Source of the DNA: an uncultured Lutibacter sp.
GTDB taxonomy: Bacteria; Bacteroidota; Bacteroidia; Flavobacteriales; Flavobacteriaceae
Length of the DNA stretch: 34,327 bases
Direction: 5' to 3'
Assembly (NCBI RefSeq): GCF_937891065.1
Contig: NZ_CALAEQ010000002.1
Location: forward strand, 1 to 34,327
Below are positions 936 through 14,090 of this stretch, one piece after another. The translations under genes were made by a program, and so were the position numbers. The number at the start of each line of letters is the position of its first letter. The stretch's first letter is position 1. Below the pieces are notes generated by a model. It worked only from the letters and a program-made list of their open reading frames with translations, made no database searches and was not told the origin of the DNA.

Positions 936-3900
936 ATGAGTAAACAGAATTTGATATATATAGGAAACAAGGAAGCTTCATTTGAGGCGAATGAGGTAAA
1001 AGGTAAGTTAGTAACGGTTGGAGATGAAAGTTACTACAAAATTTCGAATGTTGACGAAATGAGACCTTTTTTTATGAGTATTGTTAGTAACTCTAACCAT
1101 TGGATGTTTTTGTCTAGCAATGGTGGATTAACTGCAGGAAGAAAAAACAGTGAAAATGCGCTATTTCCTTATTATACTGATGATAAGATTACTGAATCAG
1201 TTGAAATTACAGGGAGTAAAACAATTGTTCAGATTCACGCTCAAGGCAAAACTTTTTTATGGGAGCCATTTTCAAAAAGATATGAAGGTATTTATAAAAT
1301 TAGTAGAAATTTGTACAAGAACAACTATGGAAACAAAGTTATTTTTGAAGAAATTAATCACGATTTAGGAGTTACTTTTAAGTATCATTGGAATTCGAGT
1401 GACAAATTTGGTTTTGTGAAAAAATCAACATTAGTTAACAATACCAACAAATCAATTCAGTTAACTATTTTAGACGGTATTCAAAATATATTGCCTTACG
1501 GTGTTTCATCAGATTTGCAAAATGCTAGTAGTAATTTGGTGGATGCTTACAAAAAATGTGAATTAGAAACTGATTCAGGATTAGGGATTTTTGCTTTAAG
1601 CGCTATTATTGTTGATAAAGCAGAACCTAGTGAGGCATTAAAAGCAAACATTGTATGGTCTTTTGGAATTGAAAATCCAACTTATTTATTGTCTTCGTTG
1701 CAATTAGATGATTTTAGAAAAGGAAAGGAAATTCAGCAAGAAATAGATATTAAAGCCGAAAAAGGTGCTTATTTTATTTGTACAGATGTAACCTTAGAAC
1801 CTGAAAGTGATAAAAATTGGAACATTATAGCTGATGTAAATCAATCTATAGTTGCTATTACTAAAATTAAAGAAATTATTAAAAATGAATCGAATTTAAT
1901 TGCTTTAGTTGATGAAGATATTCAATTAGGATCTAATCAATTGCTTCAATTAAATGGTGCATCTGATGGAATGCAATTAACTGCCGATAAATTAAGAAAC
2001 ACGAGGCATTTTTCGAACACCCTTTTTAATATTATGCGTGGTGGTATTTTTGATGACAATTATCAAATTGAAAAAGGAGATTTCATAAAATATATTGGAA
2101 ACGCTAATAAAAAAGTACATAAAGAAAAAGAAGAAATATTAAAGCAACTTCCTGAATTATTTACACTTAACTATTTAAAGGAACTTGCAAAAAATAATCA
2201 AGACAAGAATTTTAAACGTCTTTGTTTTGAATATATGCCATTAAAATTTAGTAGACGACATGGAGATCCAAGTCGTCCTTGGAATAAATTTTCTATCAAT
2301 ACAAGAAGTGAAGTTGATGGCTCAAAAATATTGGATTATGAAGGTAACTGGAGAGATATTTTTCAAAACTGGGAAGCTTTAGCACATTCATATCCTGAGT
2401 TTATTGAGAGTATGATTCATAAGTTTTTAAACGCCACAACATTTGACGGTTACAATCCTTATCGAGTTACCAAAGATGGTTTTGATTGGGAAACCATTGA
2501 ACCAGACAATCCTTGGTCGTATATTGGATATTGGGGAGATCATCAAATAATCTATTTGTTGAAATTCTTAGAATTTATTGAAAAGCATTATCCAGCTAAA
2601 TTAGCAAGCTATTTTAGTCAAGAGCTTTTTGTATATGCAAATGTTCCTTATAAAATAAAAAATTATAAATCTATTTTAGCAAATCCAAAAGACACTATTG
2701 AATTTGATTTAGAGTTGGATGAAGAGCTCAACCTAAAAAAGAAAGAATTAGGAGCAGATGGAGCTTTATTGATAGATAAAAATCAAGCTATTTATAAAGT
2801 GAATTTGGTTGAGAAATTGTTAGCAACAGTGTTAGCAAAGGTTTCCAATTTTATTCCTGAGGGAGGAATTTGGATGAGTACACAACGACCTGAATGGAAT
2901 GATGCGAACAATGCTTTAGTTGGTAATGGAGTTTCAATGGTTACTTTGTATTATTTACGTCGCTTTTTAAATTTCTTCCAAGAAATGGTTTCAAATACTG
3001 ATTTGGATTCAGTAGAAGTTTCGGAAGAACTTGCGTTGTTTTTTAATGAAGTTTTATCAACCTTTAATGAAAATAAAAATTTATTAGCTGGAAAAATTTC
3101 AGATAAAGACAGAAAGAAAATATTAGATGGTCTTGGAAATGCAGGAGGTAATTTTAGAACTGGTATTTATGAAAACGGATTTTCAAGTAACAAAGGAACT
3201 ATTTCAAAAACAGATTTATTAGACTTTGCTAAAATTACACTTGAATTTATTGACCATTCTATTTTAGCCAATAAGAGAGCTGATAAATTATACCACGCTT
3301 ATAATTTAATGACTGTTAATAATAATGAAGAAATAGTAATATCTTATTTGCCAGAAATGTTGGAAGGTCAGGTTGCTGTTTTAAGTTCTGGTTTTATTTC
3401 TGGAACGGATTCATTAGAATTGTTAGATGCTTTAAAAAGCAGTGCTTTATTTAGAGACGATCAATACAGCTATATATTATACCCAAATAAAGAGTTACCA
3501 AGATTCAACGATAAAAATAATATTTCGGCTAATAATGTTGAGAAATCCGCATTATTGAAGCAACTTTTAACCGATAGAAATACTCAAATTATTGAAAAAG
3601 ATGTTTTGGGGAATTGCCATTTTAATGGAAACTTCAACAATGCAAACAGTCTTAAAGATGCTTTAGCTCAATTGCCAGAAGATAAATATTCATCTCTTAT
3701 TGAAAAGGATGAGAAATTAGTCTTAGCTATTTTTGAAGAAATTTTTAATCATAAATCTTTTACAGGAAGATCAGGAACATTTTTCGGGTATGAAGGATTG
3801 GGTTCTATTTACTGGCACATGGTTTCTAAATTATTATTAAGTGTTCAAGAAACCTGTTTAATGTCCCTTTCAAATAAAGAAAGTGAAGTTACCATTGGAA

Positions 3901-4400
3901 AATTATTAGATCATTATTACGAAATAAACGAAGGAATTGGGGTGCATAAATCACCCGAATTATATGGTGCATTTCCAACCGATCCATATTCACATACACC
4001 AGGAGGAAAAGGAGCACAACAGCCAGGAATGACAGGTCAAGTGAAAGAAGATATTTTAAGTCGTTTTGGTGAATTAGGCGTTTTTGTTGAAGAAGGAAAA
4101 TTAGTTTTTAATCCAAGATTGTTAAGAAGGGACGAATTTTTAAAAGGACCAAAAGTATTTAAATACACAAATATCAACAAAGAAGTAAATGAAATTGAAT
4201 TAGAAAAAGACTCACTTGGTTTTACCTATTGCCAAATTCCAATCATCTACAAATTATCAAAAAAACAAGGAGTGAAAGTTATTTTTAATAACAATTCAAT
4301 TATTGAATTTGATAGCCTTCAACTCGATTCACAAACAAGTAAAAAAGTGTTTGAAAGAACAGCTGAAATTAATCAAGTAATTGTGTATTTAAACAAGTAA
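936..4400 (+). CDS. GH149-type beta-1,3-glucan phosphorylase
   Basis: This would cleave beta-1,3-gluco-oligosaccharides with inorganic phosphate from the non-reducing end, giving glucose 1-phosphate and saving ATP. There is no signal peptide, so it acts in the cytoplasm on imported oligosaccharides. Its 1154 residues are much longer than GH94 enzymes and fit GH149. The motif RPEWNDANNALVGNG carries Asp656, aligned with the general acid of the DWND motif in GH94-like phosphorylases. Near the C-terminus PYSHTPGGKGAQQPGMTG is the expected glycine-rich phosphate-binding part. A substrate-site segment EGNWRDIFQNWEALA lies near residue 470. It is followed after 8 bases by a GH3 gene, so the two are probably co-transcribed. 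GH161, another long beta-1,3-glucan phosphorylase family, is the main alternative. Confidence 0.82.
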   Translation: MSKQNLIYIGNKEASFEANEVKGKLVTVGDESYYKISNVDEMRPFFMSIVSNSNHWMFLSSNGGLTAGRKNSENALFPYYTDDKITESVEITGSKTIVQIHAQGKTFLWEPFSKRYEGIYKISRNLYKNNYGNKVIFEEINHDLGVTFKYHWNSSDKFGFVKKSTLVNNTNKSIQLTILDGIQNILPYGVSSDLQNASSNLVDAYKKCELETDSGLGIFALSAIIVDKAEPSEALKANIVWSFGIENPTYLLSSLQLDDFRKGKEIQQEIDIKAEKGAYFICTDVTLEPESDKNWNIIADVNQSIVAITKIKEIIKNESNLIALVDEDIQLGSNQLLQLNGASDGMQLTADKLRNTRHFSNTLFNIMRGGIFDDNYQIEKGDFIKYIGNANKKVHKEKEEILKQLPELFTLNYLKELAKNNQDKNFKRLCFEYMPLKFSRRHGDPSRPWNKFSINTRSEVDGSKILDYEGNWRDIFQNWEALAHSYPEFIESMIHKFLNATTFDGYNPYRVTKDGFDWETIEPDNPWSYIGYWGDHQIIYLLKFLEFIEKHYPAKLASYFSQELFVYANVPYKIKNYKSILANPKDTIEFDLELDEELNLKKKELGADGALLIDKNQAIYKVNLVEKLLATVLAKVSNFIPEGGIWMSTQRPEWNDANNALVGNGVSMVTLYYLRRFLNFFQEMVSNTDLDSVEVSEELALFFNEVLSTFNENKNLLAGKISDKDRKKILDGLGNAGGNFRTGIYENGFSSNKGTISKTDLLDFAKITLEFIDHSILANKRADKLYHAYNLMTVNNNEEIVISYLPEMLEGQVAVLSSGFISGTDSLELLDALKSSALFRDDQYSYILYPNKELPRFNDKNNISANNVEKSALLKQLLTDRNTQIIEKDVLGNCHFNGNFNNANSLKDALAQLPEDKYSSLIEKDEKLVLAIFEEIFNHKSFTGRSGTFFGYEGLGSIYWHMVSKLLLSVQETCLMSLSNKESEVTIGKLLDHYYEINEGIGVHKSPELYGAFPTDPYSHTPGGKGAQQPGMTGQVKEDILSRFGELGVFVEEGKLVFNPRLLRRDEFLKGPKVFKYTNINKEVNEIELEKDSLGFTYCQIPIIYKLSKKQGVKVIFNNNSIIEFDSLQLDSQTSKKVFERTAEINQVIVYLNK

Positions 4401-6227: not shown

Positions 6228-7496
6228 ATGAATAAAATATTTAAAATAGTTTCAACTATCCTAATTTTATTTTCTATGATTGGATGTTCCCAAGAACCAA
6301 AAACCACAAAAATAACAGCCTCTGATATTTTAGGAAATCCTGAATATTTAGCAATTTCATATGGTGGTTTTCGAGAAAATACACGAGATGTAGTTCCTTC
6401 GGTTGAACAAATTAAAGAGGATATGAAAATTTTAGCAACTATGAATGTTAAAATTTTAAGAACTTACAATGTACATTTAGATGAGGTATCAAATCTGTTA
6501 AAAGCAATCTCAGAACTTAAAAAAGAAGATCCAACTTTTGAAATGTATGTAATGTTAGGAGCCTGGATTGATTGTAAAAATTCTTGGACCGAATTAGAGC
6601 CAGATCACAATTTAGAAAGTGAAAGAAATGCTGTTGAAATAGCCAGAGCAGTAGAATTAACTAAAAAGTATGCGGATATTATTAAAGTTATAGCAGTTGG
6701 AAATGAGGCGATGATTCGTTGGGCGACAAGTTATTATGTACAACCCAATGTAATTTTAAAATGGGTCAACCATTTACAAGAAATAAAAAAGAAAGGAGAG
6801 CTTCCTGCTGATTTATGGATAACCAGTTCCGATGATTTTGCATCTTGGGGAGGTGGAGATACTAGTTATCGCACAAAAGATTTGGAACAATTAATCAAAG
6901 CAGTTGATTATGTCTCAATGCATACATATCCGATGCACAATTCTTACTACAATCCGGAATTTTGGGTAGTTCCAAACACTGAAAACAATTTTACCGATAC
7001 TGAAAAAGTGGATGCCGCTATGTTACGTGCACTGGAATTTGCAAAGAATCAATATCAAGAGGTTTCAAGCTATGTGAAAAGTATAGATTCAACGAAAACA
7101 ATTCATATTGGTGAATCGGGTTGGACAACAATTTCTGATGGGCATTATGGAGAAAAAAGCTCAAGAGCTGCTGATGAATACAAAGCAGGAACTTATTATA
7201 AATTAATGCGTGAATGGACTAACAAAGAAAAAATTTCATTATTCTATTTTGAAGCTTTTGACGAACAATGGAAAGATGCTAAAAACCCAGTAGGTTCAGA
7301 AAATCATTTTGGTTTAATCAATTTAAAAGGAGAAGCGAAATTTGCTATCTGGGAAATGGTTGACGCAGGTGCTTTTGATGGATTGACTAGAGATGGCATG
7401 CAAATTACCAAAACATATAATGGTGATAAAAATGCATTGATGCAAGATGTATTTACACCGCCATTGGCAAGTGAAAAAGATGTGTCACCAAAATAA
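6228..7496 (+). CDS. GH17 endo-beta-1,3-glucanase, lipoprotein
   Basis: An endo-acting beta-1,3-glucanase of the kind found in marine flavobacterial laminarin loci. The first 20 residues form a lipoprotein signal (lipobox MIGC, Cys20), so the enzyme is anchored in the cell envelope. The GH17 barrel covers about residues 35-385. The acid/base is Glu160 in VGNEAM and the nucleophile is Glu296 in GESGW; the motifs VDYVSMHTYP and FEAFDEQWK are also typical. The C-terminus ends QDVFTPPLASEKDVSPK, and a diverged copy of these last 17 codons plus stop occurs again at 8980-9033 (see that entry). The downstream intracellular GH17-like gene at 15947 is clearly related along its whole length. Confidence 0.9.
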   Translation: MNKIFKIVSTILILFSMIGCSQEPKTTKITASDILGNPEYLAISYGGFRENTRDVVPSVEQIKEDMKILATMNVKILRTYNVHLDEVSNLLKAISELKKEDPTFEMYVMLGAWIDCKNSWTELEPDHNLESERNAVEIARAVELTKKYADIIKVIAVGNEAMIRWATSYYVQPNVILKWVNHLQEIKKKGELPADLWITSSDDFASWGGGDTSYRTKDLEQLIKAVDYVSMHTYPMHNSYYNPEFWVVPNTENNFTDTEKVDAAMLRALEFAKNQYQEVSSYVKSIDSTKTIHIGESGWTTISDGHYGEKSSRAADEYKAGTYYKLMREWTNKEKISLFYFEAFDEQWKDAKNPVGSENHFGLINLKGEAKFAIWEMVDAGAFDGLTRDGMQITKTYNGDKNALMQDVFTPPLASEKDVSPK

Positions 7497-7527
7497 ATAT
7501 GTTGTTAAACAACCCTAAGAAAAAGTA

Positions 7528-7653
7528 TAAACCAATATAATGAACCATTATAAAACAGATCCAAAGGGCATTGTGTTAATCGTTGATAAATTAGCGTTTT
7601 GGTCAGGATATATAGCGAATCAGTTATTCCCTGCGGTATTGGGTGTTTTTATG
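7528..7653 (+). repeat. Direct repeat copy 1: leader and 5' end of a symporter gene, fused to GH16
   Basis: The 13 bases at 7528-7540 (TAAACCAATATAA) are identical to 9078-9090, and the next 38 codons align without a gap to the first 38 codons of the symporter gene at 9094. By hand count, 24 of the first 45 amino acids are identical. The DNA is clearly diverged, including at third codon positions, so the copy is old or came from a different paralog. The longest shared run in the coding part is TTGGGTGTTTTTATG at the end of the repeat. Confidence 0.85.
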
Positions 7654-8934
7654 TTGCTTATTCTTCAATCATGTAGTAATGATAATGATGACAAAAAAGA
7701 AGCTATTCAACCATCAAACCTTACTGTTAATTCAGAAATTATTGGAACATCTACAGAAAAACCGAATGGTGACGGAACTGGTGTTGTAAACTTTACAATT
7801 AACGCAACCAATGCTAGTTCATATAAAGTGCTAATTAATGGAGAAACTAAAGATTTAACATCTAATACTTTCTCTTATACTTTTAAATCAATAGGTACTA
7901 TAAACTACACAATCATTGTTTCAGCATATAACTTAGACGATTTTATAAGTACTACTATTACCTTAACTGTATTTGTAGGTCAGGAAGAAATAGAAGGTTT
8001 GTTGTGGTCTGATGAGTTTAACAATAACAGTTTAGATTTAACCAAATGGAATATAGAAACTGGTACTGGCGTGAATGGAGATTGGGGAACCGGACAATTA
8101 GATAGAGCTACTGAAAGGCCAGAAAATATTAGATTTGATAATAGCATTGCAAATGCTGATGGAGGATGTTTGGTGATTACAACCCGAAAAGAATCGTACA
8201 TAGATAGAGACTACACTAGTGGTAGAATAAATACAGCAAACAATGCTTCTTGGGGGCCTGGACATCGAATAGTGGCTCGTGTATATGCCAAAGGTGTTAA
8301 GCATCAAGGTCAAGGTTTTGCTTTTTGGATGATGCCTCAAGAAAAACCTGCAAACTTAGATTTTATTATGTGGCCACAAGGAGGAGAAATTGATGTTATG
8401 GAATATGTAGGAGCGATTCCTTTTAATAATTTAGGGACTGTGCATTATGCTTGGGAATGGCAAAATAATGAATACCAAGATTGGAATCATGGACATTTAG
8501 GAGGATATTATAATTATGAAACCGAACAAACACCTAATCCATCCGAACCAGAATATGGTAATTACCCACCAGCAGATGAAGATAAAACAGCAGGGAGTGC
8601 TGAATTTCATGAGTATGGTATTGATTGGTATAGTGATAGAATAGAGTTTTTTATAGATGAGAATGTGTATCATATTCATTATTTTAATGATGGTGATATT
8701 TACAATCTTGATGGACAAGATGAAATTTCGGTAAAAACGATAGATGGTAGACGTGTTAATACATCTGAATATTCAAATCATTTTGATGAATGGCATCCGT
8801 TTGAACATAAAATGAATGCAATTTTAAGTGGTGGTGTTGGTGGAAGTGAATATACTTATGGTGGCGCTATTGTTCCAGAAGCAGAATTCCCATGTGATGT
8901 TTATATAGATTGGGTGCGTGTTTATGCATTATAA
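7540..8934 (+). CDS. GH16 endo-beta-1,3-glucanase (laminarinase), lipoprotein with symporter-derived N-terminus
   Basis: The GH16 domain (about residues 150-464) carries the active-site motif GGEIDVMEYVG with nucleophile Glu283, Asp285 and acid/base Glu288, in the bulged ExDxxE form usual for laminarinases. Residues 57-147 look like a PKD/Ig-like domain. Lipobox LQSC gives Cys45, followed by an acidic SNDNDDKK stretch, so the mature protein is a lipoprotein, probably at the cell surface. The unusual part is residues 1-38: HYK, KLAF and ANQLFPA-LGVFM match the N-terminus of the GPH symporter encoded next. The start at 7540 is preferred because the next in-frame ATG (codon 38) would leave only a seven-residue lead before Cys45, without any positive charge. 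The first transmembrane helix of a transporter seems to have become a signal peptide. Confidence 0.9.
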   Translation: MNHYKTDPKGIVLIVDKLAFWSGYIANQLFPAVLGVFMLLILQSCSNDNDDKKEAIQPSNLTVNSEIIGTSTEKPNGDGTGVVNFTINATNASSYKVLINGETKDLTSNTFSYTFKSIGTINYTIIVSAYNLDDFISTTITLTVFVGQEEIEGLLWSDEFNNNSLDLTKWNIETGTGVNGDWGTGQLDRATERPENIRFDNSIANADGGCLVITTRKESYIDRDYTSGRINTANNASWGPGHRIVARVYAKGVKHQGQGFAFWMMPQEKPANLDFIMWPQGGEIDVMEYVGAIPFNNLGTVHYAWEWQNNEYQDWNHGHLGGYYNYETEQTPNPSEPEYGNYPPADEDKTAGSAEFHEYGIDWYSDRIEFFIDENVYHIHYFNDGDIYNLDGQDEISVKTIDGRRVNTSEYSNHFDEWHPFEHKMNAILSGGVGGSEYTYGGAIVPEAEFPCDVYIDWVRVYAL

Positions 8935-8979
8935 AAAATTAGGAAGACGCTTGAAGCTAATTAACATTTTTTTATTTTT

Positions 8980-9033
8980 AAAGATGTTTTGGCACCAACA
9001 TTAACCAGTGAAATAGAAATAGTAAATAATTAA
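8980..9033 (+). pseudogene. Ghost of a GH17 C-terminus (last 17 codons and stop)
   Basis: Reading from 8980 gives KDVLAPTLTSEIEIVNN and a stop, which aligns without gaps, stop to stop, with the end of the GH17 lipoprotein (QDVFTPPLASEKDVSPK, 7443-7496). Six of 17 residues are identical with several conservative changes, and I count 35 of 54 bases identical. An in-frame stop at 8962-8964 closes the frame five codons upstream, so nothing larger is encoded. The remnant lies 60 bases before the symporter gene, the same order (GH17 tail, then symporter head) as at 7443-7653. Confidence 0.6.
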
Positions 9034-9077
9034 TTTAGAGTATAGTTACAATATCTAAAAAACAATATAAACCAACT

Positions 9078-9207
9078 TAAACCAATATAAATAATGAAAC
9101 ATTATAAAATAGCAACAGAAGATGTTGTTCCCTTAGGCCAGAAATTAGCCTTTGGATCTGGGCATTTAGCCAATCAATTATTTCCTGCAGCATTGGGTGT
9201 TTTTATG
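9078..9207 (+). repeat. Direct repeat copy 2: leader and 5' end of the intact symporter gene
   Basis: This is the intact partner of the repeat at 7528-7653. It comprises 13 identical leader bases (9078-9090), a three-base insertion before the ATG, and the first 38 codons of the symporter. Confidence 0.85.
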
Positions 9208-10551
9208 GTTGTGTTAGTAATGTCTTTAGGGATGAATCCGATTTTAGCAGGTTTGTTAGGTGCATTACCTAGATTTTTAGATGCACTTACCGACCCAATT
9301 ATGGGGTTTATTTCAGATAATACAAAGTCCAAATGGGGAAGAAGAAAACCTTATATACTTGTAGGTAGTGTTATTTCCGGAATAGCATATATGATTATGT
9401 GGCAATTAAATCCTGAAGATTCTGAAATGTATAATTTCTTTTATTTCTTGGTTGTATCGCTTTTCTTTTACATTGGTTATACCATTTTTGCAACGCCATT
9501 AATTGGTTTGGGTTATGAAATGACACCTGATTATAATGAGCGTACTCGTCTAATGGCAGTTTCGCAATTTATGGGACAAATGGCTTGGGTAATTGCGCCA
9601 TGGTTTTGGGTAATTATTTATGATCAATCATTATTTGAAAGTGCACCTGAAGGAGCTAAAGTAATGGCCATTTGGGTTGGAGGTTTGTGTATGGTTTTAG
9701 GAATTATGCCCGCTCTCTTCAACAAAGAAATGGAAGTTGATAAAAGTAAATTGAAAAACCTATCAAAAGGAGAATTAGCAGCAAATACAAAAGAATTTAT
9801 TAGAGGAATTGTATTAACTGTTAAAAATAAACAGTTTATGAAATTGTGTGGCGCTACTTTCTTTATTTTTAATGGGTTTCAAACAATTGCACAGTTTTCA
9901 TTTTTTATAATTGTTTATTATTTATTTCAGGGAGACACAGCTTTAGCAGGTTCTTGGCCAGCTTGGTTTGGAACTGTAAGTGCGTTGGCTACTATGTTTT
10001 TAGTAATTCCTGTTGTTACCAAAATTTCAGAAAAAATTGGGAAACGAAAAGCGTTTGTTGTAGCTACGTTACTTTCAATTGTTGGGTATATTTTAAAATG
10101 GTGGGGATTTGATCCTAGTAATCCGTGGTTAATGTTTATGCCTATTCCTTTCCTTTCTTTTGGAATTGGAGGTTTGTTTACCTTAATGATGTCAATGACA
10201 GCTGATGTTTGCGATTTAGACGAATTAAACAATGGTGAACGTCGTGAAGGAATGTTTGGAGCAGTTTACTGGTGGATGGTGAAATTAGGAACTGCCTTGG
10301 CAATGCTTTCAAGTGGTGTTGTTTTACAAATGGTTGGTTTCGATGAAAGTATCCAAGTTCAATCTGTAGAAACGCTGACCAATTTACGTTTAGCAGATAT
10401 AATTATTCCAATAATTGCAGCCTTAATTGCCATTCTATTAGTCTGGAGATATAATATAACTGAAGAGAGAGCACATGAAATTAAAGTTGCATTAGTAAAG
10501 CGCCGTGCTGAAATAGCGTTAGAAGATAATAAAAGTAAACCAAAGTATTAG
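9094..10551 (+). CDS. GPH-family sugar:cation symporter (MFS superfamily)
   Basis: A 485-residue inner-membrane transporter with about twelve predicted hydrophobic helices. The family signature RFLDALTDP (residues 60-68) followed by FISDNTKSKWGRRKPY (about 72-87) is diagnostic for glycoside-pentoside-hexuronide:cation symporters. In this setting it should carry glucose or short beta-1,3-gluco-oligosaccharides from periplasm to cytoplasm, feeding the phosphorylase and the signal-less GH17s. The GPH family is known for disaccharides and glycosides; the exact substrate here is inferred from the locus. Its first 38 codons recur, diverged, at the start of the GH16 gene. Confidence 0.9.
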   Translation: MKHYKIATEDVVPLGQKLAFGSGHLANQLFPAALGVFMVVLVMSLGMNPILAGLLGALPRFLDALTDPIMGFISDNTKSKWGRRKPYILVGSVISGIAYMIMWQLNPEDSEMYNFFYFLVVSLFFYIGYTIFATPLIGLGYEMTPDYNERTRLMAVSQFMGQMAWVIAPWFWVIIYDQSLFESAPEGAKVMAIWVGGLCMVLGIMPALFNKEMEVDKSKLKNLSKGELAANTKEFIRGIVLTVKNKQFMKLCGATFFIFNGFQTIAQFSFFIIVYYLFQGDTALAGSWPAWFGTVSALATMFLVIPVVTKISEKIGKRKAFVVATLLSIVGYILKWWGFDPSNPWLMFMPIPFLSFGIGGLFTLMMSMTADVCDLDELNNGERREGMFGAVYWWMVKLGTALAMLSSGVVLQMVGFDESIQVQSVETLTNLRLADIIIPIIAALIAILLVWRYNITEERAHEIKVALVKRRAEIALEDNKSKPKY

Positions 10552-13055: not shown

Positions 13056-14090
13056 ATGATTAAAAAATTCAAAATAGCAATTATTCTTAGTTTTATTGTG
13101 TTTTTAAATTATGCATTGGTTTCTTGCCAAGAGAAAAACAATAAAGATGTGGTGACAATTTCAGAACGAAAAATACTAGTAAATGATTCTGTTTATCAAA
13201 TAAAAGGTGTTTGCTATCACCCTGTTCCAAAAGGTAGTGATAAGAGGAGTTTTAGTAATTTAACTAAGGATTTAGCTTTGATGGTTGAAGCAGGTATCAA
13301 TACCATTCGTGTGTATGAACCAATTGATGATAAAGCTGTTTTAGATGAAATATATGAAGCCGGACTTAAGGTTATTATAGGTATTGGATATAACCAAAAT
13401 GGAAATTTTGATATTCTTTCAGGTTCATTTATTAATTACATAAATACTTACAAAAACCATAATGCAATATTGTTATGGGAACTCGGCAATGAATATAATT
13501 ATCACCCTGAGTGGTTTAGTGGCGATATAAAAAACTGGTACGTAGCTTTAAATAATGCTGCAGATTTAATTCATCAAACGGATCAAAATCATCCAGTTGC
13601 AACTGCACATGGAGAATTACCTGATGCACTAACACTTTCATTAACCGAAAATATTGATGTTTGGGGAATAAATATTTATAGGTGGGACAATCCATCAAGT
13701 TTTTTTTCTGAATGGAGTGCTTTAAGTGATAAACCGATGTATTTTTCAGAAGCAGGAGCAGATAGTTATATGACTATTTCAAAAGGCGACTATGAGCAAG
13801 GTTCAAACGAAAAAGCGCAAGCTGATGCAACAAAAAATATTTTAGAAAACATATTTAAAAATTCAAATTCTCATAATGGTGTAACTCTATATGCATTTGT
13901 TGATGAATTATGGAAAGCAGGTAATAATGACAGTCAAGATCCTGGTGGTTGGGCTCCAAATAGTAGTGGAGTTCCTTATGATGGTACACCAAATGAAGAA
14001 TATTGGGGCATCGTAGATATTGATAGAAATAAAAAAGAAGTATTTAATGTGGTAAAAGAAATTTATACGAACATTAATAATTCCAATTAA
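13056..14090 (+). CDS. Clan GH-A glycosidase-like lipoprotein, family uncertain
   Basis: A 344-residue lipoprotein (lipobox LVSC, Cys24) whose mature part is a single TIM barrel. The barrel opens with IKGVCYHPVPKGSDKRSF and AGINTIRVYEPIDD, which resemble the GH2 barrel domain and GH72 beta-1,3-glucanosyltransferases. The two catalytic glutamates expected for clan GH-A are visible: acid/base Glu146 in WELGNEYN and nucleophile Glu232 in FSEAGADSY. A segment near the end, DPGGWAPNSSGVPYDG, is distinctive but I cannot tie it to a described family. The enzyme is likely to act on beta-glucan fragments in the periplasm, either by hydrolysis or transglycosylation. It follows the GH3 by 54 bases and is followed by the mutarotase-like gene. 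Confidence 0.7.
   Translation: MIKKFKIAIILSFIVFLNYALVSCQEKNNKDVVTISERKILVNDSVYQIKGVCYHPVPKGSDKRSFSNLTKDLALMVEAGINTIRVYEPIDDKAVLDEIYEAGLKVIIGIGYNQNGNFDILSGSFINYINTYKNHNAILLWELGNEYNYHPEWFSGDIKNWYVALNNAADLIHQTDQNHPVATAHGELPDALTLSLTENIDVWGINIYRWDNPSSFFSEWSALSDKPMYFSEAGADSYMTISKGDYEQGSNEKAQADATKNILENIFKNSNSHNGVTLYAFVDELWKAGNNDSQDPGGWAPNSSGVPYDGTPNEEYWGIVDIDRNKKEVFNVVKEIYTNINNSN

Follow-up and report, generated by a model that had tools for sequence, protein, structure and literature searches.

A putative GH16 beta-glucanase gene of an uncultured Lutibacter begins with codons homologous to the start of a GPH-family sugar symporter

The origin of bacterial export signals can rarely be traced, since these signals diverge fast. 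The first helix of an MFS transporter inserts N-inside, in the same orientation as a signal peptide, and in laboratory MFS-PhoA topology fusions an enzyme attached to the first helix of such a symporter is exported. Among natural systems, fusions of an MFS symporter with a GH17 glycosidase have been described in flavobacterial laminarin loci, such as FbGH17b (FORMB_24740) of Formosa in the available text of PMC6246565, and work on Enterobacterales, in the accessible part of PMC5952966, reports that signal peptides were gained through the gain of an N-terminal region or through point changes. Among the titles and abstract openings listed by our searches of open-licence literature, none told of a transporter helix turned into a lipoprotein signal, which is weak evidence of absence.

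Here, we describe a candidate for such a case in an uncultured Lutibacter sp. (contig NZ_CALAEQ010000002.1 of assembly GCF_937891065.1). The analysed stretch of 34,327 nucleotides is referred to as the window, and its relevant features are collected in Table 1.

Table 1. Features of the GH17-GPH region and its surroundings in the window
Feature	Position	Strand	Basis or remark
GH149 beta-1,3-glucan phosphorylase	936-4400		NF058639; no Pfam family at E 0.01
GH17 lipoprotein gene, usual upstream neighbour of GPH	6228..7496	+	PF00332 E 6.3e-6, 26.5 bits, just below gathering score 28.2
13-base leader TAAACCAATATAA	7528..7540	+	Identical to 9078-9090
GH16 gene	7540-8934	+	464 aa
GPH-derived codons 1-38 of GH16 gene	7540..7653	+	Homology to GPH symporters
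Remnant of GH16's own signal, LLILQS and lipobox Cys45 (LQSC)	7654..7674	+	Orthologue signals end ...ILSC, ...LQSC and similar
Mature GH16 part	7675..8934	+	PF00722 E 6.2e-8; 66-72% identity to 8 orthologues
Probable relic of second GH17 3' end, KDVLAPTLTSEIEIVNN*	8980..9033	+	GH17-tail profile; weak blastn match
Second copy of 13-base leader TAAACCAATATAA	9078..9090	+	Sequence identity
Intact MFS sugar symporter of the GPH family (485 aa)	9094..10551	+	Pfam MFS_2 E 2.7e-68; TIGR00792 E 1.4e-58, below curated cut-off

In 10 of 13 related loci the GH17 gene is directly followed by the GPH symporter gene, with gaps of 31-103 bp, the loci of G037, G016 and G026 being ordered otherwise. The corresponding gap in the window measures 1597 bp and is occupied by a GH16 gene, which has no match between GH17 and GPH in any of the 13 related loci. 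The symporter behind it, at 9094, shares 92-94% amino acid identity with those of G031, G020, G021 and G032. Several observations on relatives of this locus deserve mention in their own right. In G017 (L087:7762-7872), a stretch of 37 residues between GPH and CotH is 86% identical to the product of the TIM-barrel glycosidase gene at window position 13056, and is probably a relic and a sign of piecemeal gene loss in the locus. In loci L089 and L090 (G031 and G025), GPH and GH3 are 97.3% and 93.4% identical, compared with 71.5% for GH149 and 76.0% for GH17, and the GPH-GH3 block may therefore move between species independently. Lastly, a single ORF of G016 (L097:14015-16375, by Pfam) combines a GPH symporter with a GH17 domain at the C-terminus, the type of fusion described in the available text of PMC6246565; candidate frames of this type, of 785-802 aa, also occur in G249, G237, G254, G062, G121, G216 and G063, the Pfam check having covered G016.

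The GH16 ORF matches Pfam PF00722 with 32.7 bits (cut-off 22), and its translation contains GEIDVMEY, which conforms to the GH16 catalytic motif E-x-D-x-x-E, so that domain and motif identify the product as a putative beta-glucanase. Its mature part runs from an acidic linker, SNDNDD, through an N-terminal segment to the catalytic domain with GEIDVMEY. Pfam detected no MFS family in the ORF or in its residues 1-38, that is, no complete GPH transporter of the 12-helix MFS_2 kind.

The start of the gene, however, resembles that of the symporter at 9094, as a preliminary description of the window had claimed. Comparing 7301-7900 with 8951-9500 by blastn returned one strong match, between 7528-7653 and 9078-9207 (94/130 identities, 72.5 bits, E 9e-17), which confirms this likeness. 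Codons 1-38 align without gaps at 23/38 identical residues and 82/114 identical nucleotides, and the earlier hand count of 24 identities over residues 1-45 is exact. The BLOSUM62 score of the fragment against the symporter was 116, with a maximum of 28 in 20,000 shuffles, and the nucleotide identity of 82/114 compares with a shuffle maximum of 52 (again 20,000 shuffles). Against 12 GPHs, 21-28 of the 38 residues are identical. The likeness also stops where it had been said to stop: identity in 30-base blocks amounts to 21, 18, 21 and 24 up to 7659 and to 5-10 thereafter, and past the junction only 1 of 7 residues (39-45) is shared. Together, these alignments show codons 1-38 of the GH16 gene to be homologous to codons 1-38 of GPH symporters, with similarity ending sharply at 7653. 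The fragment comprises the start codon, the cytoplasmic n-region and the front part of TM helix 1, with helix limits judged by hydropathy. As for the leader, the preliminary description was right about the shared 13 bases and the gap-free codon match, but the leader sits 4 bases off relative to the coding match; among 10 relatives listed, 7 have the motif AAACCAA 5' of their GPH start. Inspection by eye for microhomology at the junction revealed nothing clear. We also considered placing a recombination breakpoint by sliding identity and rejected this approach: several of six pairs do show an increase where the GPH begins, but it may reflect protein conservation.

Within the genus, the fragment was matched in 16 of 38 genomes. 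The window's own genome carries both the chimera and the symporter; in 14 of the 15 others, those covered by translation, the matching frames continue as GPH, and G033 has frames of 527 and 535 aa. The chimera was found in one of the 38. The 30 other fragment-matching loci (L057-L085 and L099) likewise all continue as GPH, L071 being cut by the contig end. Matches to the GPH N-terminus with an internal stop occur in G220 (C96:4174-4275) and G239 (C1:2003157-2003282), in frames of 39 and 103 aa, and are possible GPH relics. The chimera is known from one draft genome only, an assembly of 276 contigs with a completeness of 95.2 and a contamination of 2.25, which would suit an assembly artefact that joined two sequences at 7653. 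We nevertheless judge such a misjoin very improbable: the junction is in frame and at a functionally sensible place, the assembly holds no other close GH16 copy and no GPH of the G035 type (see below) that could have been misjoined, and the 3' side carries a probable diverged GH17 relic, which is not expected from a simple misjoin.

A scan of species genomes placed relatives of the GH16 at 23 loci. Eight of them (L033-L038, L042 and L043, with L038 cut by the contig), from Flagellimonas, Muricauda/Allomuricauda, Tamlana and MAGs, are close orthologues, their N-terminal part included, and all eight have ordinary short lipoprotein signals with the lipobox Cys at positions 17-27, counted from the first in-frame ATG (GTG in L035). 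A ninth, contig-cut relative, L031, has its Cys at 18, and in L039-L041 (67-69% identity) the alignment to the window protein begins only at about residue 136 and the signal is of another type, which lacks a lipobox. The 38-residue fragment had no match (E 1e-3) in the 52 loci with GH16 relatives, flanks of up to 6 kb included, where the sole GPH-like match was a 23% one in L044; the idea that the chimera was already present in GH16 orthologues elsewhere was rejected on these grounds. A transporter-like N-terminus common to the orthologues, which the preliminary description had named as fatal to its proposal, was thus not encountered in the loci examined. Listed ORFs in four of the close loci show GH5 with CBM and GH30 as neighbours (L033, L035, L038) or, in L037, the order GH30, GH5 and then GH3, the last directly upstream of GH16. 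Of 397 family genomes sampled, only the window's own matched the GH16 at E<=1e-60; named loci outside this sample match as well.

Had the original signal been replaced, as initially proposed? In part: the symporter leader, start codon and helix-1 front occupy the place of the orthologues' n-region and front h-region, but the enzyme's own LLILQS and lipobox were retained. The best 13-residue hydrophobic core of the composite, residues 30-42, combines the transporter helix part FPAVLGVFM with the native LLIL and has a mean hydropathy of 2.72 (eight orthologues 2.45-3.42, L031 2.17). It is preceded by 29 residues of net charge +1, compared with 0-14 residues in the eight orthologues, and followed by the lipobox LQSC with Cys45 and by SNDNDDK; a positive n-region, a hydrophobic core and a lipobox are therefore all present. 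The Cys of a lipoprotein is expected within about residues 15-35 under a PROSITE-type rule, which Cys45 violates; among 76 lipobox ORFs collected by regex from the window and from 36 loci, the other 75 have their Cys at position 34 or less. In-frame ATGs before Cys45 lie at 7540 and 7651, and because a start at 7651 leaves only 7 residues before the Cys, the transporter start at 7540 must be used, unless translation begins at GTG7573.

With the hydrophobic core, the lipobox and the acidic linker intact, the GH16 product most likely remains a lipoprotein, one whose signal is unusually long. An acidic linker after the lipobox Cys is of the export-signal type. Alternatively, the fusion could be real and its N-terminus an uncleaved inner-membrane anchor or a poor export signal, leaving a tethered or useless enzyme. 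The length of the signal, 44 residues and thus beyond that of any other ORF in the screen, would agree with this reading, as would the source of the fragment, a permanent TM helix. We consider it unlikely all the same, given that the helix is trimmed to a lipoprotein-like core right before the LQSC lipobox and acidic linker, and that ORF and catalytic motif are intact.

The fragment itself has changed in a manner compatible with loss of transporter function. It departs from the GPHs at four invariant residues (D10G, G21W, L25I and A33V), or five if G011 is left out (P13L), with the loss of an acid, a proline and a glycine; among the 12 GPHs, 10 show no such departure, whereas G011 shows one and G247 three. 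Conserved nucleotides have changed at 12 places, and 9 of these changes are nonsynonymous. The dN/dS values between fragment and GPHs were 0.08-0.27 where dS was computable (2 of 12 pairs were saturated), which, as each path includes the GPH side, are no proof of selection after the fusion. The comparison suggests that the fragment peptide is not freely drifting.

Given that the intact symporter lies next to the chimera and bears the identical 13-base leader, it had been taken as the donor, and one could picture its 5' end as duplicated in place, capturing the GH16. However, the GPHs of G035 and G017, with 28/38 identical residues (87-88/114 nucleotides) and the shared residues TDPK, resemble the fragment more closely than does the symporter at 9094 with 23/38; to G031 of the 9094 group it has 27/38 identical residues but 83/114 nucleotides. 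In trees, the split that places the fragment outside the 9094 group received ultrafast bootstrap values of 97 on nucleotides and 86 on amino acids, the pairing of fragment and G035 reached 65 on nucleotides, and inner amino acid nodes stood at 49-52. The AU test rejected the fragment as sister to 9094 (p 0.021 on nucleotides, 0.013 on amino acids), in an alignment of only 38 codons with a long branch, whereas a placement anywhere within the 9094 group was rejected on amino acids (0.022) and retained on nucleotides (0.092), and KH and SH rejected none of these placements (p 0.06-0.08 for sisterhood with 9094). Furthermore, dS between fragment and 9094 was 1.13 (24 synonymous sites) versus 0.36 between 9094 and G032, so that the split of fragment and 9094 would predate that of 9094 and G032, and G032 has only a 38% relative of the GH16. 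Duplication of the neighbouring symporter thus appears quite unlikely, a recent in-place event being disfavoured by identity, dS and AU alike, and the claim for the neighbour as donor is probably wrong. The likely donor is a GPH lineage of the G035 type. A second close GPH or GH17 in the assembly was considered as a source and dismissed: besides 6228, 9094 and the fragment, the assembly, at 95.2% completeness, yielded only matches of 21-37% identity and no close second GPH.

The other side of the GH16 gene carries a further trace. The stretch 8980-9033 (KDVLAPTLTSEIEIVNN) resembles the C-termini of the relatives' GH17 proteins, for example LLKEVLAPPLANEIKK in G021. With a GH17-tail profile of 12 positions built from the tails of 10 relatives, it scored 16.9. 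In the 34 kb window only the true GH17 scored higher (33.7), the next place followed at 14.9, and 8935-9093 shuffled 2000 times by mononucleotides never reached 16.9. A weak blastn match to the GH17 end (28/37, E 0.003) was also found, and the 60 bases that separate the stop of this stretch from the symporter are a usual distance at a GH17-GPH junction. We therefore regard 8980-9033 as a probable and well-supported remainder of the 3' end of a second GH17, the margin over the next place in the window being small (16.9 versus 14.9). The preceding bases, 8935-8979, were considered as a 3' flank brought along from GH16 orthologues; comparison with seven such flanks gave above-chance matches only at the gene end itself and lent this idea no support. 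Since an intact GH17 and a broken GPH lie to the left of the GH16, and a broken GH17 and an intact GPH to its right, the gene seems to sit between two GH17-GPH junctions.

We thus favour, as the probable history, that the GH16 was inserted between two diverged GH17-GPH junctions and fused in frame to the broken GPH, which put a symporter-derived start on a lipoprotein signal. A GH16 of the kind seen in GH30-GH5 beta-glucan loci would have arrived, probably by horizontal transfer, in a GH149-GH3-GH17-GPH locus, presumed to serve laminarin. On the left, the first symporter would have been cut at codon 38/39, and on the right, the second GH17 within its final ~17 codons; the two junction copies might go back to a tandem duplication, to an incoming locus beside a resident one or to other recombination. 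Being in frame, the left junction would have supplied the symporter leader, the start codon, the cytoplasmic n-region and the front of TM helix 1, and joined them to the six residues that end the GH16's own signal and to its lipobox. As MFS helix 1 is oriented N-inside like a signal peptide, Sec insertion followed by Lgt and LspA processing is the likely route: the composite segment would enter Sec N-inside as TM1 does, the product would be processed at Cys45, and the acidic linker would direct the lipoprotein outward. That the chimera works as an export signal is what we infer from its composition.

More tentatively, and with considerable doubt, the symporter helix may now be a working, selected lipoprotein signal that keeps co-translational (SRP/YidC-type) targeting, with the GH17-GPH region as a recurrent site of symporter-glycosidase fusion. 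If this were true, a surface glucanase would be made and inserted like a transporter. The favoured history suggests a one-step takeover of local expression and export parts by a transferred enzyme. In the chimera one can recognise the family of the donor, the leader, the junction and the signal that was replaced; it is an N-terminal exchange with an unusually legible history and offers a natural test of a transporter helix serving as a lipoprotein signal.

How, then, does the chimera compare with known systems? Close GH16 orthologues reside in the flavobacterial GH30-GH5-GH16 loci (L033, L035, L037 and L038), where they have an ordinary lipoprotein signal and, unlike the chimera, no GPH-derived start. 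Compared with MFS-PhoA fusions, the chimera is natural, and its helix ends in a lipobox. It shares with the signal gains and losses of Enterobacterales an export signal altered among orthologues via the gain of an N-terminal region; there, the mechanism section of PMC5952966 names no source of the gained regions, while here the family of the source is identifiable along with leader and junction, and the new region took the place of an existing signal. The chimera resembles FbGH17b, as described in the available text of PMC6246565, in that an MFS symporter and a laminarin-active glycosidase meet in one ORF in the same type of locus, but FbGH17b joins a complete 12-helix transporter to a C-terminal GH17, whereas the chimera employs 38 residues of the transporter only, as the signal of a GH16.
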